From Amycolatopsis japonica (GTDB taxonomy: Bacteria; Actinomycetota; Actinomycetes; Mycobacteriales; Pseudonocardiaceae): a stretch of DNA of 64,000 nucleotides. The position numbers and the translations under genes were made by a program. A model generated the notes under the pieces. That model did not search any database and was not told where the DNA came from. It saw only the letters and a list, made by a program, of their open reading frames with translations. Location of the stretch: assembly GCF_000732925.1 (NCBI RefSeq), contig NZ_CP008953.1, forward strand, positions 7,867,001 through 7,931,000, read 5' to 3'. This document shows positions 8,678-60,089 of this stretch, piece after piece. The first letter of the stretch is position 1; each line of letters opens with the position of its first letter.

Positions 8678-9038
8678 GACGAATTCCTCCAGCCGCATTC
8701 CGCTGCCCGTTGGTCGGCCGTGGGACCGGGTTCGTTACCGGTGTCCGTCGTTCGCCTGCTTTTGGCGGAATGCCTGTGCGGCAAGGGAATTACTCATCGT
8801 TCGAAGGGCGCGAAACGCTACAGGGCGCGCGTAAGGGACGCGTAACGATCTCGGGAGCGCGCGGGCGGCGGCGAGGGATGGGTCCGGTTGGTCGTGAGTG
8901 GTAAGTGACGTTCTAACGTCACTTACCACTCACGACCACCCCGCCTCGGTTATCCACAGCCACCGCCCTCCCCCGCTGCTTGTCCACAGATCCGCTTCGA
9001 GCCACCCGCCACGACCCTCCACCGGCGATCGTCAGAGG
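8678..9038. other. Divergent intergenic region between exopolysaccharide operon and AbiEi-like gene
   Basis: These 361 bp hold the promoter of the minus-strand polysaccharide operon and presumably that of the plus-strand gene. No confident -10/-35 pair was found. The only strong structure is the palindrome at 8889-8938. No RNA gene or further protein-coding frame with a ribosome site was recognised. Confidence 0.6.
8889..8938. repeat. Perfect palindrome, copy 1 of the GTCGTGAGTGG family
   Basis: Two 24-bp arms (8889-8912 and 8915-8938) match perfectly around a 2-bp centre. The arm reads TGGTCGTGAGTGGTAAGTGA and ends CGTT. The same sequence with a different central dinucleotide recurs at 10054-10099, so the two copies bracket the AbiEi-like gene. 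This copy lies in a divergent intergenic region and therefore is not simply a shared transcription terminator. Confidence 0.95.
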
Positions 9039-10053: not shown

Positions 10054-10099
10054 GTCGTGAGTGGTAAGTGACGTTAGAACGTCACTTACCACTCACGAC
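10054..10099. repeat. Perfect palindrome, copy 2 of the GTCGTGAGTGG family
   Basis: Two 22-bp perfect arms (10054-10075, 10078-10099) flank the dinucleotide AG. The arms are identical to those of the 8889-8938 copy. It lies between the convergent stops of the AbiEi-like gene (10040) and the chitosanase (10105), where an RNA hairpin on either strand could terminate transcription. No T-tract follows. Confidence 0.95.
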
Positions 10100-15955: not shown

Positions 15956-17016
15956 CCGCGATCGACCTGGGGATCCCCACCCTCGGCGGCTTGGACCTTG
16001 TGCCGACCGAGACCGAACCGCAGAAGGCCAAGGACTACAAGTCGGACCAGGAGGTCCGCTGGTGTCCCGGCTGCGGTGACTACGTCGTGCTCAACGCCGT
16101 GCAGTCGTTCCTGCCGACGCTCGGCCTCAAGCGCGAGAACATCGTGTTCATCTCGGGCATCGGATGCTCGTCCCGGTTCCCGTACTACCTGAACACCTAC
16201 GGCATGCACTCGATCCACGGCCGCGCGCCGTCGATCGCGACCGGGCTCGCGACCGCGCGACCGGATCTGTCGGTGTGGGTCGTCACCGGTGACGGCGACG
16301 CGCTGTCCATCGGCGGAAACCACCTGATCCACGCGCTGCGGCGCAACGTGAACATCAAGATCCTGCTGTTCAACAACCGGATCTACGGCCTCACCAAGGG
16401 CCAGTACTCGCCGACGTCCGGGCCGGGCATGGTCACGAAGTCCACCCCGATGGGCTCGGTCGACACCCCGTTCAACCCGCTTTCGCTGGCGATCGGCGCC
16501 GAGGCGTCGTTCGTGGGCCGCGCACTCGACTCGGACCGCAAGGGCCTCACCGAGGTGCTGGAAGCCGCCGCGAAGCACCGCGGGTCCGCGCTGGTGGAGA
16601 TCTACCAGAACTGCCCGATCTTCAACGACGGCGCCTTCGACGTCCTCAAGGACAAGGACGAGGCCGCCACCCGGCTCATCCCGCTGAAGGCCGGCGAGCC
16701 GATCAAGTTCGGCCCGCAGGGCGAATACGGCGTCACGCGCGGCAACTGGGCCGGGCTGGAGGTCGGGAAGGTCGCGAACATCGGCGAGGAGAACCTCGTC
16801 GTGCACGACCCCACGATCGAGGACACGGCGTACGCGTTCGCGCTTTCGCGGATCGGCGACCAGAACCTGAACCACGTGCCGACCGGCATCCTGCGGCAGG
16901 TCGAGCGGCCGACCTACGACGACCAGGCGCGTGCCCAGGTCGCGGAGGCGCAGGCCGCCCGCAAGCCGGACCTTCAGGGCCTGCTGCGCGGCAAGGACAC
17001 CTGGACCGTCGTGTAG
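15952..17016 (+). CDS. korB: 2-oxoacid:ferredoxin oxidoreductase, beta subunit
   Basis: This 354-residue thiamine-diphosphate subunit begins at GTG 15952, overlapping the korA stop. The cluster-binding motif WCPGCGDY gives C38 and C41; C72 (IGCSS) and a later cysteine in IYQNCPIF complete a probable [4Fe-4S] set. The Mg-ThDP motif reads GDGDALSIGGNHLIHALRRN. Together with KorA it yields low-potential electrons for ferredoxin, which fits the nearby respiratory genes. The 53-bp palindrome that follows is the likely transcript end. Confidence 0.94.
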   Translation: MTAIDLGIPTLGGLDLVPTETEPQKAKDYKSDQEVRWCPGCGDYVVLNAVQSFLPTLGLKRENIVFISGIGCSSRFPYYLNTYGMHSIHGRAPSIATGLATARPDLSVWVVTGDGDALSIGGNHLIHALRRNVNIKILLFNNRIYGLTKGQYSPTSGPGMVTKSTPMGSVDTPFNPLSLAIGAEASFVGRALDSDRKGLTEVLEAAAKHRGSALVEIYQNCPIFNDGAFDVLKDKDEAATRLIPLKAGEPIKFGPQGEYGVTRGNWAGLEVGKVANIGEENLVVHDPTIEDTAYAFALSRIGDQNLNHVPTGILRQVERPTYDDQARAQVAEAQAARKPDLQGLLRGKDTWTVV

Positions 17017-17033: not shown

Positions 17034-17086
17034 GCAATGAAAGGTCCTTTCCTCGCAAATTTTGCGAGGAAAGGACCTTTCATTGC
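17034..17086. repeat. 53-bp perfect palindrome (AAAGGTCCTTT family), bidirectional terminator candidate
   Basis: Two perfect 26-bp arms (17034-17059 and 17061-17086) flank a single base. Each arm contains its own small palindrome AAAGGTCCTTT. It sits exactly between the convergent stops of korB (17016) and the sunset-domain gene (17089) and could fold into a very stable hairpin on either strand. A diverged copy of equal length lies inside nuoG at 37925-37977 (44 of 53 positions identical by my alignment). Confidence 0.95.
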
Positions 17087-36282: not shown

Positions 36283-37606
36283 CGCCGGCCTCCCTTCCAC
36301 TGGAAACCGCCGCGGGCTTGCGCTTGGCAGCCCGGGCTTCGGCCTTCGCGAGGGCCTTCTGACGCGGGGTCTTCTCCGGGACCTGCAGGTCGAGCGGCGG
36401 CACGGGGAATCCGCCACCGGTCACCGGGACGTAGTCGTCGTCCGGGACCTTCTTGTCCGGCAGCAGCAGGCTCAGGATGACGACGACGAGGATGAGCGCG
36501 CCGCCGCCGATGAGGATCTGCGGGGTCGACAGGCCACCCGAGTTCTTGATCGCGCGGACCGTGACGATCACGACGATCCAGACCAGGTTGACCGGCACCA
36601 GGACCTTCCAGCCCAGCCGCATGAACTGGTCGTACCGCAGCCGCGGCAGCGTGCCACGCAGCCAGATGAAGCCGAACAGCAGGATGAACAGCTTCGCGGC
36701 GAACCAGATCAGCGGGAGCCAGCCCTGGTTCAGCGCGTGGTCCGCGCCGACGAAGGGGAACTTCCAGCCGCCGAGGAACAACGTGGTCGCGAACGCCGAG
36801 ACGATCACCATGTTGACGTACTCGGCGAGGAAGAACATCGCGAACTTCATCGAGCTGTACTCGGTGTGGAAACCGCCGACCAGCTCGGATTCGGCCTCGG
36901 GGAGGTCGAACGGCGCGCGGTTGGTCTCACCGACCATGGAGATCAGGTAGATCACGAAACTCGGCAGCAGCAGGTAGAAGTACCAGCCGCTCTGCTGCGA
37001 CTCGACGATCGCCGACGTCGACATCGAACCCGCGTAGAGGATGACGCCGACGATGGAGAGACCCATCGCGATCTCGTAGGAGATCACCTGAGCCGCGCTG
37101 CGCAGACCGCCGAGCAGCGGGTACGGCGAGCCGGACGACCAGCCGGCCAGCACCAGGCCGTACACACCGATCGAGGAGCAGGCCAGGATCACCAGCACAC
37201 CGACCGGCAGGTCGACCAGCTGGAGCACGGTCCGCTCACCGAAGATCGAGACGACCGGGCCGAACGGGATCGCCGCCAGCGCGATCAGCGCCGGCACCGC
37301 GGAGATCACCGGCGCGAGGAAGTACACCTTGCGGTCGGCGGTGTCCGGGATGATCTGTTCCTTGAACGGCAGCTTGATCGCGTCCGCGAGGGACTGCAGG
37401 TAGCCGCCGGGCCCGACCCGGTTGGGGCCGGGACGGTTCTGCATCCGGCCGACGGCCTTGCGCTCCCAGACGATCAGGAAGATCGTCAGGATCGGGCCGA
37501 TCAGCAGGATGACGACCGTCTTGAGCAGGACCAGCCACAACGGGTCGTCCGCCAGCAGCGCCGCCCGCTCGGCGGCGTCCGGCATCTGGCTGAGCAACGG
37601 AGTCAC
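36269..37606 (-). CDS. nuoH: NADH-quinone oxidoreductase subunit H
   Basis: The 445-residue membrane subunit lines the quinone tunnel and has about eight helices. Landmarks are [37 protein letters not shown] and [11 protein letters not shown]. The C-terminus is extended by a charged tail (from [13 protein letters not shown]) typical of actinobacteria. GTG 37606 overlaps the nuoG stop (GTGA). Confidence 0.97.
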
Positions 37607-40122
37607 TTCTCACCTCCGGTGAGGGTGACGGCCGAACCGTGACCCGCGCTCAGGGAAGCGCGGACGGCCGAGCCGTCGGAGTTGCCCGGGAGCCATACGA
37701 CGCCGTCCGGCAGGTCGGCGACCTCGATCGGCAACGTGATGGAACCGCGTTCGGTGGAGACCTTGACGCTGCCGCCCAGGCCTTCGGCGGTCTTCGCCGA
37801 GAGCTTGGCGACGACCTCGCGCTGCGTGCCCTTGAGGTGCGGCTCGCCGTCCTGCAGCGAACCGTTGTCGATCAGCTGGCGCCAGGTGGCGAGGAGGACC
37901 TGGCCGTTCTTGGGCTCGGCGCGTGCAATGAAAGGTCCTTTACTGGCAAATTCTGCAAGGAAGGAGCCTTTCCTAGCAGGCAGCTTGGCCAGATCGGCGG
38001 CGGAAGCGGCCGGGGTCTGGGTGAACAGGTCCGCGTCCATCTCGACGGCGAGGGTGTCGAGCACCCGGCAGTCCGGCAGGGCGCCGGTGCCTTCGAGGGT
38101 GACGGCGAACTCGCGGCGGCGGCCTTCCCAGTTCAGGTAGCTGCCCGCCTTCTCGACCGCCGGGGCGATCGGGAGGACGACGTCCGCGTGCTCGGTGATC
38201 CCGCTGTGCCGCAGTTCCAGGCTCACCACGAACTTCGCGTTCTCGAGCGCGCGACGGGCCAGATCCGGATCCGGCAGGTCGTCCGGGTCGACGCCGCCGA
38301 TCAGCAGGCCGTCGATGTCCTGACCCGAAGCGGCCTTGAGGATGGCGGTGGTGTCACGGCCCTCCGTGGCGGAAAGCGTGACGCCCCAAGCCTTTTCGAC
38401 CTCGGCGCGAGCCTCGGCGTCGGCGACCGAGCGGCCACCGGGCAGCAACGTCGGCGCCGCGCCCGCCGCCAGGGCACCGCGTTCACCCGCACGACGCGGG
38501 ATCCACGCGAGCCGGGCACCGGTGCGCTCCACCAGCCGGTGCAGGGCCGAGAAGAGACCCGGGACCTCGGCGGCACGTTCGCCGACGAGGATCACGGCTC
38601 CTTCCGAAGCCAGTGCCTGGTCGACGTCCTGCGCGTGCTGCGCGATGCCGTCGATCGCGGCGGCCTCGGCACCCGGCGCGCAGGCCAGCAGTTCGCCGAA
38701 GGTCTTGCGGACCGACGAGGTGGTCCACTGTCCCAAGTGGACGACGCGCGTGCGGTTCTTGCGGGCCGCCTTGCGCAGCCGCAGGAACACGATCGGCGCT
38801 TCGTCCTCCGGCTCGAACGCGACGCACAGCACCGTGCGCGCCCGCTCGATCTCGCCGAAGGTGACTCCGCTTTCCGGCGTCGTGCCGACCACGTGCGACG
38901 CGAGGAAGCCCAGCTCCTCGGCCGAATGCGGGCGGGCGCGGAAGTCGATGTCGTTGGTGCCCAAGGCGATCCGCGCGAACTTCGAGTACGCGTAGGCGTC
39001 CTCGACGGTCAACCTGCCACCGGTCAGCACCGCGGCGCCCTTGCCGTCGCGTGCCTTGGCCAGCCCTTCGGCGGCCGCGCGCAGCGCGTCGGTCCAGGAA
39101 GCCTCTTCGAGCACGCCGTCGGCGTTGCGGACCAGCGGACGGCGGATGCGGTCGTCCGCGGTCGAGTAACGGAACGCGAAGCGGCCCTTGTCGCAGAGCC
39201 ACTCTTCGTTGACCTCGGGGTCGTCGCCCGCGAGCTTCCGCATGACCTTGCCGCGGCGGAAGTCGGTCCGCTCGGCGCAGCCGGACGAGCAGTGCTCGCA
39301 CACGCTCGGCGAGGACACCAGGTCGAACGGCCGCGAACGGAACCGGTACGCGGCCGACGTCAGCGCGCCGACCGGGCAGATCTGGATGACGTTGCCGGAG
39401 AAGTACGACTGGAACGGCTGGCCGCCCGCCGAAGTAAGTTCTCCCGCTGAGGCGGCATCAGACACAGACGTGCGGGAAGCCAGGGTAAGCACATCCGCGG
39501 TCGCCGATGTGCCGATCTGCTGGTGGGCGCCGCGTTCGAGGAGCTCGATGAACGGGTCGCCGGCGATCTCGCGGGAGAACCGGGTGCAGCGCTGGCAGAG
39601 CACGCAGCGCTCCCGGTCCAGCAGCACCTGCGAGGAGATCGGCAGCGGCTTCGCGAACGTCCGCTTCGTGTCGACGAAGCGGGAGTCCGCGCGGCCGTGC
39701 GCGAGCGCCTGGTTCTGCAGCGGGCATTCGCCGCCCTTGTCGCAGATCGGGCAGTCCAGCGGGTGGTTGATGAGCAGCAGCTCCATCACACCCTGCTGGG
39801 CCTTGTCCGCGACGGCCGAGGTCAGCTGGGTCTTCACGACCATGCCGTCGGCGACCGTCATGGTGCACGAGGCCTGCGGCTTCGGCATCGGGCGGCCGCC
39901 CATTTCGACCTCGACCAGGCACTGGCGGCAGGCGCCCGCCGGGTCGAGCAGCGGGTGGTCGCAGAAGCGCGGGATGACCGTGCCGAGCCGCTCGGCGGTG
40001 CGGATCAGCAGCTCGCCCTTGGGCGCGATGACCTCTTCACCGTCGATGACCAGCTTGACGTGGCCCTCGGGGACCGGAGTGTCCTCTGTGGACGTCCCGG
40101 GCTTGTCGGGTGCGATCGTCAT
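37603..40122 (-). CDS. nuoG: NADH-quinone oxidoreductase subunit G, with in-frame repeat insert
   Basis: The 839-residue iron-sulfur subunit carries the N1b [2Fe-2S] ligands C54, C65, C68 and C86, His120 plus C124, C127 and C133 for N5, and a further set starting CVLCQRC and ending ICPVG. The rest is the molybdopterin-oxidoreductase-like domain. Residues 716-733 ([17 protein letters not shown]) are encoded by a diverged palindromic repeat at 37925-37977 without breaking the frame. A second atypical stretch (about residues 205-233) interrupts the region between QQIGT and [15 protein letters not shown] 40122 overlaps the nuoF stop as ATGA; an in-frame GTG-type start further upstream lies inside nuoF. 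Confidence 0.95.
37925..37977. repeat. Diverged 53-bp palindromic element lying inside nuoG
   Basis: This stretch begins with the same 17 bases as the 17034-17086 palindrome (GCAATGAAAGGTCCTTT) and keeps its exact length, with nine substitutions over 53 positions. The palindrome has decayed toward its right arm but arms are still recognisable. It lies wholly inside nuoG, where it contributes codons 716-733 in the open frame between conserved parts of the protein. Confidence 0.88.
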
Positions 40123-41399
40123 GCCTGCGCCCCCACCAATTCGCGCTTGTTTGCTTGACACAAAGCCAGGAATTCATCCCGGAAGTACTTGATACCGCTC
40201 TGGATCGGCGAGACCGCGCCGTCGCCGAGCGCGCAGAACGAGCGGCCGAGGATGTTGTCGCAGACGTCGAGCAGGGTGTCGATGTCCTCCTCGGTGCCCT
40301 TGCCCTCGACCATGCGCTCCAGGATCTGCGCCAGCCAGTACGTGCCCTCACGGCACGGCGTGCACTTGCCGCAGGACTCGTGCTCGTAGAACTGCGTCCA
40401 CTTCATCACGGCCCACGGCACGGAAACGGTCTCGTTGAAGACCTGCACGGCCGTCGTGCCCAGCATCGACCCGGCTTCCGCCGCGCCTTCGAAGTCCAGG
40501 GGAACATCGAGGTGCTCGGCGGTGAACATCGGCGTGGACGAACCACCCGGCGTCCAGAACTTCAGCGGGATGCCGTCCTTCATGCCGCCCGCCATGTCCA
40601 GCAGCTCGCGCAGCGTGGTGCCGAGCGGGCATTCGTACTGGCCGGGCTTCTCGACGTGGCCGGAGATCGAGTAGATCTTCGGGCCGGGCGACTTCTCGCG
40701 GCCCATCTCGCGGAACCAGCTCGAACCGCCGTTGACGATGTACGGCGCGCTGGCGATGGTCTCGACGTTGTTCACCGTGGTCGGCGCGGCGTAGAGGCCC
40801 GCGGCGGCCGGGAACGGCGGCTTGAGCCTCGGCTGGCCGCGACGGCCTTCGAGCGAGTCCAGCAGCGCCGTCTCCTCGCCGCAGATGTACGCCCCGGCGC
40901 CCGCGTGCACGGTGATGTCGAGGTCGAATCCGGAGTCGAGGATGTTCTTGCCGAGGTAGCCCGCTTCGTACGCCTCGCGCACGGCCGCGTTGAGGCGGCG
41001 GATGCAGTGCAGAGCCTCGCCGCGGACGTAGATGAAGCAGTGGTGCGAACGCATCGCGTACGAGGCGATGATGCAGCCCTCGATCAGCGAGTGCGGGTCC
41101 GCCATCATCAGCGGGATGTCCTTGCAAGTGCCCGGCTCGCCCTCGTCGGCGTTGATGACGAGGTAGTGCGGCTTGTCCTCGTTCGGCGGCATGAAGGACC
41201 ACTTGATGCCGGCGGGGAAGCCCGCGCCGCCACGGCCGCGGAGGCCGGAGTCCTTGACCAGCTGGACGATCTGCTCGGGAGTGGCCTTGAGCGCCTTGCG
41301 GATCGCGGTGTAGCCCTCGAGGGCTTCGTAGGACTGGATCGTCCAGGAGTTGGGCGAAAGCCAGCGCTTCGTGAGGACCGGAGTGATGGGATCGGCCAT
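40119..41399 (-). CDS. nuoF: NADH-quinone oxidoreductase subunit F (NADH/FMN/[4Fe-4S])
   Basis: The 426-residue subunit holds the NADH- and FMN-binding glycine-rich loop GRGGAGFP at residues 55-62 and a C-terminal cluster motif [13 protein letters not shown] for N3. It is the electron entry point of complex I. ATG 41399 shares a base with the nuoE stop (TAATG). Confidence 0.97.
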
Positions 41400-45524: not shown

Positions 45525-45766
45525 AAGCATGGGGCGAGTGTAGGACGTGACTCACATTCTTGTCCCTAGGCCCCGTGCTATAAGGCTGCCCTAACTTGGC
45601 CGCACGGCCAGTACGGTTTCTTCGCACGTGCGGTACCGGTGACCTGCGACGTCGTTCTCAAGATCGGCTTCAGGGGGCTGTTTGACCACATTTGTCCTGT
45701 GACCGATACCACTGCGCGGAGTACCCGTGACTGGTCCAGACGTGTGGTGGCGGGCCGTGGCACACA

Positions 45767-45829
45767 GCATTTCGTCCTCTGACTGCGGTGGTTCGAAGGG
45801 CGAACTACCGCAGTCAGAGGACGAAATGC
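45767..45829. repeat. Inverted repeat with 29-bp arms next to menJ stop
   Basis: Left arm 45767-45795 and right arm 45801-45829 match at 28 of 29 positions, separated by AAGGG. The arm begins GCATTTCGTCCTCTGACTGC. It ends 7 bp before the menJ stop codon on the minus strand and could act as the menJ transcript terminator; no T-tract follows. It differs in sequence from the other palindromes in the window. Confidence 0.93.
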
Positions 45830-45835
45830 GGGGCG

Positions 45836-47122
45836 TCAGCGCGGGGAGGGTGTGGCGCGCGCCAGGGCGGCGATCAGGCGGTCGACGCCGTCCCCGCCCT
45901 TGGCGTCGTAGCAACCCGAAAGTCCCTTGTAGACCAACGGAAGGATCGAGTTGATCCGCAGTCCGTACTTCGTCGCCGCGTGCATGACCTTCGGCTTACC
46001 GATCAGCTTCGCGAACACGTTGCCGAGCCGGTAGTAGCCGCCCATCAGCTCCGCGACGGCGCGCGGGTAGCCCTCCAGCGCCCGCTCACGCGAAGGTCCT
46101 TCGCGCCGCGCCAGCGCCTGCACGACGAACTCCGACGCCAGCTGCGCGGACTCCATCGCGGCCGAGATGCCCTCGCCGTTGAACGGGCTGACCATGCCGC
46201 CGGCGTCGCCGAGCAGCAACAAGCCGTCGCGGTAGTGCGGGGTGCGGTTGAAGCCCATCGGGAGACCGGCGCCGCCGACCTTGCCGATGGCGTTCTCCTC
46301 GCGGTAGCCCCATTCCTCGGGCGTCCCGTCGAGCCACTGACGCAGCAGCGCGCGGTAGTCGGTGCTGCGGAACGCGGCCGACGTCGACAGCATGCCGAGG
46401 CCGACGTTCACCGTGCCGTCGCCGAGCGGGAACGCCCAGCCGTAGCCGGGCAGCAGCTTCGGGTCGCGCGGGTCCGAGCGGTCCCACAGCTCCAGGTGGC
46501 CCTCGATGAACGGGTCGTCGTGACGCGGACTCTTGTAGTACTGCCGCACCGCGACGCCCATCGGGCGCTTCTCGTTCTTCTGGATGCCGACGCTCAGCGC
46601 GAGCCGCGCGGAGACGCCGTCGCAGGCCAGCACCAGCGGAGCGCGGTAGCTCACCGGCGTCTTCTCCGGGCCGACCTTCGCCTCGACGCCGATCACGCGA
46701 CCGGCCGGGCTGGTGATGGCACCGGTGACGGTGGTGCGCTCGTAGAGCCGCGCGCCCGCCTTCACCGCGGTCTTCGCGAGCAGGTCGTCGAAGTCCTGGC
46801 GGGTCCGCGAAACGCCGTACGGCGGGTAGCTCGTCAGGTCCGGCCAGTCCAGTTCCAGCGTGAGCTCGCCGGTGAGGATCCGCAGGCCGCGGCTGTGCAC
46901 CCAGCCCGCGTCCTCGCTGGTGTCGATCCCCAGGTCGATGAGCTGCTTGACGCCGCGCGGGGTCAGGCCGTCGCCGCACACCTTCTCGCGCGGGAACTCG
47001 GTCTTCTCCAGCAGCAGCACGTCGACGCCCGCGCGGGCGAGGTACGTGGCGGCGGTGGAGCCGGCCGGTCCGGCACCGACGACGATGACCTCGGCGTCGT
47101 GGTCTGCGTTGCGACGTGTCAT
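45836..47122 (-). CDS. menJ: Menaquinone reductase (geranylgeranyl-reductase family flavoprotein)
   Basis: The 428-residue FAD-dependent protein has [21 protein letters not shown] at the N-terminus (dinucleotide motif, about residues 12-32) and the second FAD motif [20 protein letters not shown]. It matches MenJ, which saturates one isoprene double bond of the menaquinone tail in mycobacteria. ATG 47122 overlaps the menG stop as ATGA, supporting joint function. It is the last gene of the menG-menJ unit. Confidence 0.92.
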
Positions 47123-59729: not shown

Positions 59730-59820
59730 CGTCACCGGACCTTTGATGCGCGACTGTGTGGATTTCGGGTCGTTGGATGACCCGAAATCCACACAGTGGG
59801 CGCGAAAGGGTCCGGTCACG
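59730..59820. repeat. Long inverted repeat with 42-bp arms after menA
   Basis: Left arm 59730-59771 and right arm 59779-59820 surround GTTGGAT. The inner 19 bp (ACTGTGTGGATTTCGGGTC) and outer ACCGGACC blocks pair well, with a mismatched section between. It starts 10 bp after the menA stop, where it could terminate menA transcription. Confidence 0.88.
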
Positions 59821-59969: not shown

Positions 59970-60004
59970 TGATCCGGCGCCACTTGAGGTAGACCGCCCA
60001 CCCG

Positions 60005-60061
60005 GCGTTGCGAAAGCCACTTTCGCAACGTTGAAGGTTGCGAAAGTGGCTTTCGCAACGC
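60005..60061. repeat. Perfect inverted repeat with nested palindromic arms
   Basis: Two perfect 25-bp arms (60005-60029 and 60037-60061) surround GTTGAAG. Each arm contains its own inverted repeat, TTGCGAAAG...CTTTCGCAA, so single arms or the whole can fold. It lies 29 bp before the convergent desulfhydrase stop. The palindrome-within-palindrome design matches that of the 17034-17086 element although the sequences differ. Confidence 0.94.
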
Positions 60062-60089
60062 CCCGACAAGCCGCCCCCGACCGAGCCCC

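Follow-up and report, generated by a model that had tools for sequence, protein, structure and literature searches.

The gene for subunit G of NADH-quinone oxidoreductase (nuoG) in the 64,000-nucleotide stretch of DNA analysed here, which we call the window, contains a 53-bp palindromic sequence that has a copy of the same length between genes elsewhere in the window. This raises the question of what kind of element can occupy both places and how its copy in an essential gene relates to the others. The window belongs to a 9.05-Mb genome of two contigs (G000), assigned to the genus Amycolatopsis by its nearest named NuoG relatives, and 79 further genomes of the same genus were searched alongside it (80 in all). 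The following features of the window are considered.

37603..40161, minus strand: nuoG, NADH-quinone oxidoreductase subunit G, an open reading frame of 852 residues
37925..37977, minus strand: coding copy of the paired palindrome within nuoG, boxes at 37928-37944 and 37958-37974, 30 bp apart
17034..17086, no strand assigned: intergenic copy, boxes at 17037-17053 and 17067-17083, starting 18 bp past the TAG (17014-17016) that ends the gene labelled korB
60004..60062, no strand assigned: paired palindrome whose boxes belong to a second family (B, GCGAAAGCCACTTTCGC), in the same 30-bp layout as family A; RNA hairpin of -52.2 kcal/mol

Direct comparison bore out what the initial annotation had reported of the two 53-bp copies, namely that 44/53 positions are identical and that the first 17 bases (GCAATGAAAGGTCCTTT) are the same. 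The copy at 17034, which lies behind what is presumably korB (a name taken from that annotation), is an inverted repeat with 26-nt arms that are 100% complementary around a 1-base spacer, and its predicted RNA folds reach -45.8 and -49.1 kcal/mol on the two strands. In nuoG, the copy forms an imperfect palindrome, which agrees with its own reverse complement at 36/53 positions and is predicted to fold more weakly, at -23.6 kcal/mol on the coding strand and -26.7 kcal/mol on the other. As had been claimed, the nuoG reading frame crosses the copy without a frameshift, and it meets no stop there; the residue numbers given for it, 716-733, hold for a count from the ATG, and become 729-746 when the protein is counted from the GTG start 13 codons earlier. 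No known RNA family was recognised, with 0 Rfam matches at gathering score within the window.

The element consists of two boxes of about 17 bp, each palindromic or nearly so, whose starts lie exactly 30 bp apart and which usually form one long hairpin. In a contiguous 584-kb block of G000, 16 box pairs were spaced at 30 bp and at most two at every other spacing from 20 to 41 (box similarity of at least 14 of 17), and a single simulated sequence of equal length, which served as the control, gave 1 pair in all; the spacing table for a close relative, G023, was left out for its runs of N. The 584-kb block contains at least four box families with this layout, A (GAAAGGWCCTTTC), B (as at 60004), C (TGAAGGCCCCCTTCA) and D (CCCAATGTGGCATTGGG), and a fifth, F (GAAAGGGTCGTTC), was met among orthologous loci. 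Elements are 43-59 bp long and single boxes around 17 bp (13-23 bp). A search of the whole genome, which the initial annotation had called for, revealed many copies in G000: besides 191 sites of GAAAGGWCCTTTC, there were 371 half-site matches at up to two mismatches (reversed control, 1), and a loose two-box pattern (two occurrences of GAANGGNCCNTTC, at most one mismatch), which also captures some neighbours of family A such as GAAGGGGCCCTTC, was matched 167 times, against 0 for its reversed control.

Having found that the element is common, we considered where its copies stand relative to genes. Among 86 elements in sampled stretches of G000, G023 and G052, 48 were convergent, 35 tandem and 2 divergent and 1 lay in a weak open reading frame, as judged with a simple, crude codon-score gene caller and leaving out elements that lacked a called gene on both sides; the intergenic bases of G000, for comparison, are 12% convergent, 57% tandem and 31% divergent. 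The median distance to gene 3' ends was 25 bp, with quartiles of 12 and 115 (131 distances). A coding test applied to 97 elements in seven genomes scored 93 as non-coding and 4 as coding, all four of them in nuoG, the nuoG copies of G000, G023 and G052 themselves falling below the similarity cut and hence outside the 97. Since the elements mostly adjoin gene 3' ends, nuoG excepted, a typical copy resembles a bidirectional 3'-end hairpin and nuoG is the exceptional coding site. Judging from position and folding, the hairpins may act as bidirectional transcription terminators or 3'-end protectors, a role that would explain their place behind gene 3' ends. They share with intrinsic terminators the strong hairpin (two intergenic elements were folded), the short distance to 3' ends and the mostly convergent or tandem setting, but the copy at 17034, the only one scored for this, has no run of T on its 3' side, where ACTCAGGTAAGG stands, and the sequence is common to many copies and differs in concert between species.

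These differences between species are evident from genome-wide counts. GAAAGGWCCTTTC was present in 22/80 genomes (reversed control in G000, 0), with 191 sites in G000, 173 in G034, 77 in G042, 67 in G063, 53 in G052, 42 in G074, 21 in G033 and a single one in G023. The spelling GAACGGWCCGTTC had 104 sites in G052, 103 in G023, 45 in G013, 30 in G002 and 7 in G000, and 10 or fewer in 70/80 genomes. A third spelling, GTTATGAACGGNCCGTTCATAAC, counted at up to one mismatch, was found at 138 sites in G013, 21 in G037 and 2 in G076 and at none in the other 77 genomes, and it also occurs in both nuoG boxes of G013. G052 uses both of the first two spellings (53 and 104 sites), and G042 and G063, judged by locus, likewise have more than one type. 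A genome-wide species dialect that differs between related species is thus clear for G000, for G023 and for the arms of G013. Avoidance of the site CGGWCCG was not seen in G000, in which 457 occurrences outside boxes compare with 453 expected.

The same contrast was followed at orthologous loci. We compared 19 pairs between G000 and G023 and 12 between G000 and G052, with mean flank identities over all pairs of 96.0% and 93.0%, respectively, and restricted the tallies to family A (11 and 9 loci), setting aside family B (3 and 0), family C (2 and 1), family F (1 and 0) and pairs in which the match was to a neighbour or to another element (2 and 2). All four symmetric half-sites are C in G023 at 10 of the 11 readable family-A loci, and the eleventh (L257) is a hybrid that is identical in both genomes; tallied by hand, the 44 half-sites of each genome are 38 A, 2 G and 4 C in G000 and 42 C and 2 A in G023. 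G052 has C at four half-sites in 8 of its 9 loci and at two of four in the remaining one, so that 36 half-sites each read 34 A and 2 G in G000 and 34 C and 2 A in G052. Many of the compared stretches had been picked for listed elements of either spelling and therefore the 10/11 is not a random sample, a bias of which the genome-wide counts are free; the contrast between A and C is a difference between species, without polarity. The half-site position was unchanged at the readable G023 loci of family B (3/3), C (2/2) and F (1/1). Another 14 rows held no pattern element readable at the orthologous place, four of these being family-A loci in G023. Family-A loci are partial in G023 at the 17034 site (half deleted), L005 and L264 (N-interrupted), with C wherever they can be read, and at L261 (8800) no element could be read in that genome. 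Several loci differ solely in the half-site bases, often with the centre base as well, and agree in the rest of the element. At L011, one whole box, along with an adjacent G/T, departs from its G023 counterpart, while the other box is unchanged.

Over a wider range of species, more than single bases vary. Site 7976909, behind a gene, carries GAAAGGTCCTTTC in G000, GAAAGGACCGTTC in G052, GAAGGGGCCTTTC in G033, G042, G063 and G015, and GTTATGAACGG in G013; boxes like GAAGGACGCCTTC stand there in G060, G044 and G025 and GAAAGTCCCCTTC in G049, and the element is absent in G002 and G076 (G014 and G023 were unmatched by the script, and the G023 copy at C16:233645 was found by eye and lies outside the 11 loci). 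At site 7978593, some species have family A or variants of it and G015, G044 and G025 have family C. Positions therefore persist at these two sites, while spelling and at times the whole family changes. The 17034 site holds family C in G033 and no element in G013.

We then turned to nuoG across the genus. The element makes up the greater part of a variable linker that follows the molybdopterin-oxidoreductase domain (residues 338-686); the closest solved chain, 8e9g_G, aligns through this linker, with different residues there. The comparison with relatives that the initial annotation had proposed turned up element-free relatives: the parsed linker has 38 residues in G000, whereas its length is 34-35 in ten close relatives that lack the element (G014, G060, G044, G007, G002, G025, G076, G049, G034 and G037), and the gain of about 18 codons that had been suggested shrinks to a net 3 to 4 residues. 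Of 45 same-genus loci, 41 had a readable linker. Related box types occur at the same place in G000, G023 and G052 (GAA[A/C]GG), in G033, G042, G063 and G074 (ATGAAGGACGC) and in G013 (the spelling seen there at site 7976909); G015, G068 and G073 have boxes like those of family C, and G016, G020, G010, G009 and G048 have three D-type boxes in a row, as seen by eye. No recognised box was present in the remaining 25/41 readable linkers. Outside the genus, the nuoG of Prauserella endophytica (L033) was observed to carry two boxes of a further spelling (CCCAAGGCCACCTTGGG type), 30 bp apart, in the same linker. In a wider set, 72/125 nuoG loci could be parsed and 19 had boxes at 30-bp spacing in the linker, the background elsewhere in nuoG frames being 3 matches in 187,471 bp; two of the 19 (G032 and L041) appear to be chance matches in GC-rich sequence, and L031 duplicates G016. 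The 17 convincing carriers have linkers of 38-50 residues and element-free loci 34-39, except L044 and L065 (40) and L068 (51).

On a tree of nuoG without the linker (24 loci parsed of 27 supplied from the 45, with 8/21 inner branches well supported), carriers were not grouped, and box types and empty linkers were scattered. A single gain in one clade is weakened by this scatter, which therefore points to repeated gain, loss or recombination, and could also come from recombination of nuoG between species. The presence of different box families in one linker would be compatible with repeated insertion or replacement there. Between G000 and G052, the sole differences in the nuoG element are the four symmetric half-site bases, and half-site differences give lysine in G000 and asparagine in G052 and G023 at two residues of NuoG. 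The nuoG spelling is, however, the commonest counted one of its genome in only 3/8 carriers of related types (G000, G023 and G052). The nuoG type of G033, G042, G063 and G074, ATGAAGGACGCTTTCAT, has 23, 34, 17 and 8 exact matches on both strands, respectively, and is rarer than or about as frequent as GAAAGG-type boxes (21, 77, 67 and 42). In G013, the nuoG core (GAACGGWCCGTTC) has 45 sites and is outnumbered by the A/C hybrid core on the same GTTATG arms (138 sites for the two cores combined). G037 has GTTATG arms at 21 sites genome-wide, yet no element in nuoG.

Taking these data together, we lean towards reading the nuoG stretch as a rare coding copy of REP-like paired 3'-end hairpins that evolve in concert, and copying between copies is probably the cause. 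Dialects would spread by non-reciprocal copying among family members, through short-tract conversion or hairpin-templated repair, possibly assisted by symmetrisation of the two arms within one element. The nuoG copy would be a weakened one (about -24 to -27 versus -46 kcal/mol or lower) whose residues follow the dialect, and nuoG may tolerate it because the linker is variable in length and the hairpin is weakened. Short tracts are favoured because the L011 box differs as a unit and because hybrids of another subfamily persist. What argues against conversion of whole blocks is that G000 and G052 share bases specific to the nuoG copy (e.g. GAGCC in one of its boxes) but differ in the adjoining half-site bases, and that one nuoG half-site of G000 is G, not A. 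Matches to the Y1/RAYT transposase profile (PF01797) were absent from 8/8 genomes including G000, with control matches in 5/14; the machinery is thus not a recognised REP-associated (Y1) transposase, and a REP-RAYT system proper is weakened as a candidate. More tentatively, and with somewhat less confidence than we place in the reading of the nuoG stretch itself, Amycolatopsis may possess a trans-acting, RAYT-independent system that rewrites hundreds of dispersed paired 3'-end palindromes in place and overrides coding sequence in nuoG.

That the odd bases of the nuoG copy are kept while its half-site bases differ fits recognition of half-sites better than block conversion. We considered a recognition dialect, in which a putative sequence-specific DNA-binding factor whose specificity varies by species reads the boxes, and selection or biased recombination drives them to a new spelling. 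Each box is palindromic, as would be read by a dimeric protein, one half-site position is affected at many loci, and within the nuoG element nothing but the half-sites separates G000 from G052. A parallel exists in the DNA uptake sequences of Neisseriaceae, whose dialects vary by species and which occur as inverted pairs at terminators and as dyads (PMC3630211). We nevertheless regard this explanation as rather unlikely: hybrid boxes persist in G000 and one of them, L257, is the same in G023, which means that some half-sites escape such a drive, and the copies number hundreds rather than thousands. The Pfam 'Competence' family PF03772, which we take to be ComEC, was found in 4/4 genomes, but it also matches 10/14 control genomes.

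Turnover of mobile elements, by which new-type elements insert at the same 3'-end sites and in the nuoG linker and displace older ones in the manner of MITEs or Rickettsia palindromic elements, would account for the different families seen at one site across species (17034, 7978593 and the nuoG linker) and for the scatter of nuoG carriers on the tree. It appears improbable to us given the loci at which only half-site bases, often with the centre base, differ: the remainder of the element is unchanged there, therefore no fresh insertion is needed, and no Y1 transposase was found in the eight genomes searched. Least credible, and in our estimate very improbable, is that arm complementarity is kept by replication template switching and that the dialects reflect drift and shared ancestry. 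At base 6 of the 59-mer, the arms are paired in 64% of 42 elements in G000, against 33% expected for independent arms, as replication template switching or selection for the hairpin would give; the figures are 57% against 36% in G023 and just 32% against 25% in G052, and at base 27 pairing did not exceed expectation in any of the three. Orthologues with a flipped centre base point in the same direction. Template switching within one element, however, cannot align unlinked loci on one base, and it is disfavoured by counts of 191 versus 1 and 7 versus 103 sites in two species with flanks about 96% identical.

Concerted evolution by copying, the reading we prefer, was set beside known repeat systems; in the open-access literature we found no description of these elements. 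REPs, as an excerpt of PMC12306157 defines them, are extragenic palindromic repeats with many similar copies and are short, e.g. 14-40 nt in E. coli. The Amycolatopsis elements are likewise extragenic, nuoG being the exception, with many similar copies, and their single boxes of about 17 bp fall within this range, although the two-box element of 43-59 bp is longer. REPs, BIMEs and REPINs are described, in PMC12306157 and in published abstracts, as short palindromes with more than 100 copies per genome, extragenic, near gene ends and paired in alternating orientation, which our elements resemble. They differ in having Y1_Tnp/RAYT in 0/8 genomes, a fixed 30-bp spacing across several unrelated box families, spelling that differs in place at orthologous loci and one copy in an essential gene. 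A GTAG or CGTC tag is described at one end of REPs in PMC3733652, and none was seen by eye at the foot of the copies inspected (584-kb block and orthologous loci).

The DNA uptake sequences (DUS) of Neisseriaceae have species dialects that extend over the genome and are set apart by one or a few bases, form inverted pairs at terminators and are tolerated in genes (PMC3630211). They are the closest parallel for the pattern, without our claiming membership. The Amycolatopsis boxes, in contrast, are palindromic, 13-23 bp long, paired and nearly all extragenic where scored, and DUS have thousands of copies, unlike the 167 two-box or 371 half-site matches of G000. The initial annotation had likened the nuoG copy to Rickettsia palindromic elements, which, according to an extract of PMC10969869, are about 150 bp long and mainly lodged in genes. 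A palindromic repeat in frame at a tolerated place of a conserved gene is indeed common to both, but the likeness ends with the length of 43-59 bp and with the 93/97 elements that scored as non-coding. Its further proposal of a mobile or copied palindrome with codon-compatible length stands as far as the many copies go; most of them, though, lie behind genes, and orthologous boxes, including those in nuoG, differ in concert. Neither of the outcomes that it had named as refuting its reading was observed. Repeats are expected to spread by new insertions; in these species it is the old copies at conserved sites that differ jointly, often in the symmetric half-site bases and little besides, with flanks about 4% diverged. 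If copying is the cause, this would be a strong example of very short dispersed bacterial repeats evolving in concert in place, with an essential protein altered through the nuoG copy; if recognition is, it would be a dialect system outside Neisseriaceae. Many orthologous loci exist in the sequenced Amycolatopsis genomes, which makes the question directly testable either way.

Several further observations concern the structure of these and other palindromes. Family-A orthologues often have opposite centre bases in the hairpin (AAAATTT versus AAATTTT), as would result from an inversion of the whole element or of its tip. Hybrid family-A elements, in which half-sites with C and with A are arranged mirror-symmetrically across the boxes, coexist with the pure type in G000 (C1 199723, 1042327, 1096706, 1141523, 1324583 and 1333334). 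Within the window, 8886-8941 and 10054-10099 are two near-alike inverted repeats of other sequence (GTCGTGAGTGGTAAGTGACGTT and AACGTCACTTACCACTCACGAC), with arms of 27 nt at 96% and 22 nt at 100%, and form another family of palindromes, missed by the 30-bp box scan. Long imperfect inverted repeats lie at 45758-45838 and 59730-59820 (arms of 38 and 42 nt, 87% and 79% complementary), and at the former the alignment with G023, G052 and G013 is interrupted at the repeat. Finally, intergenic runs of degenerate ACTCGCGTGATCA-like units were seen near palindromes at about C1 7941498 of G000, outside the window, and at about C16 197868 of G023.
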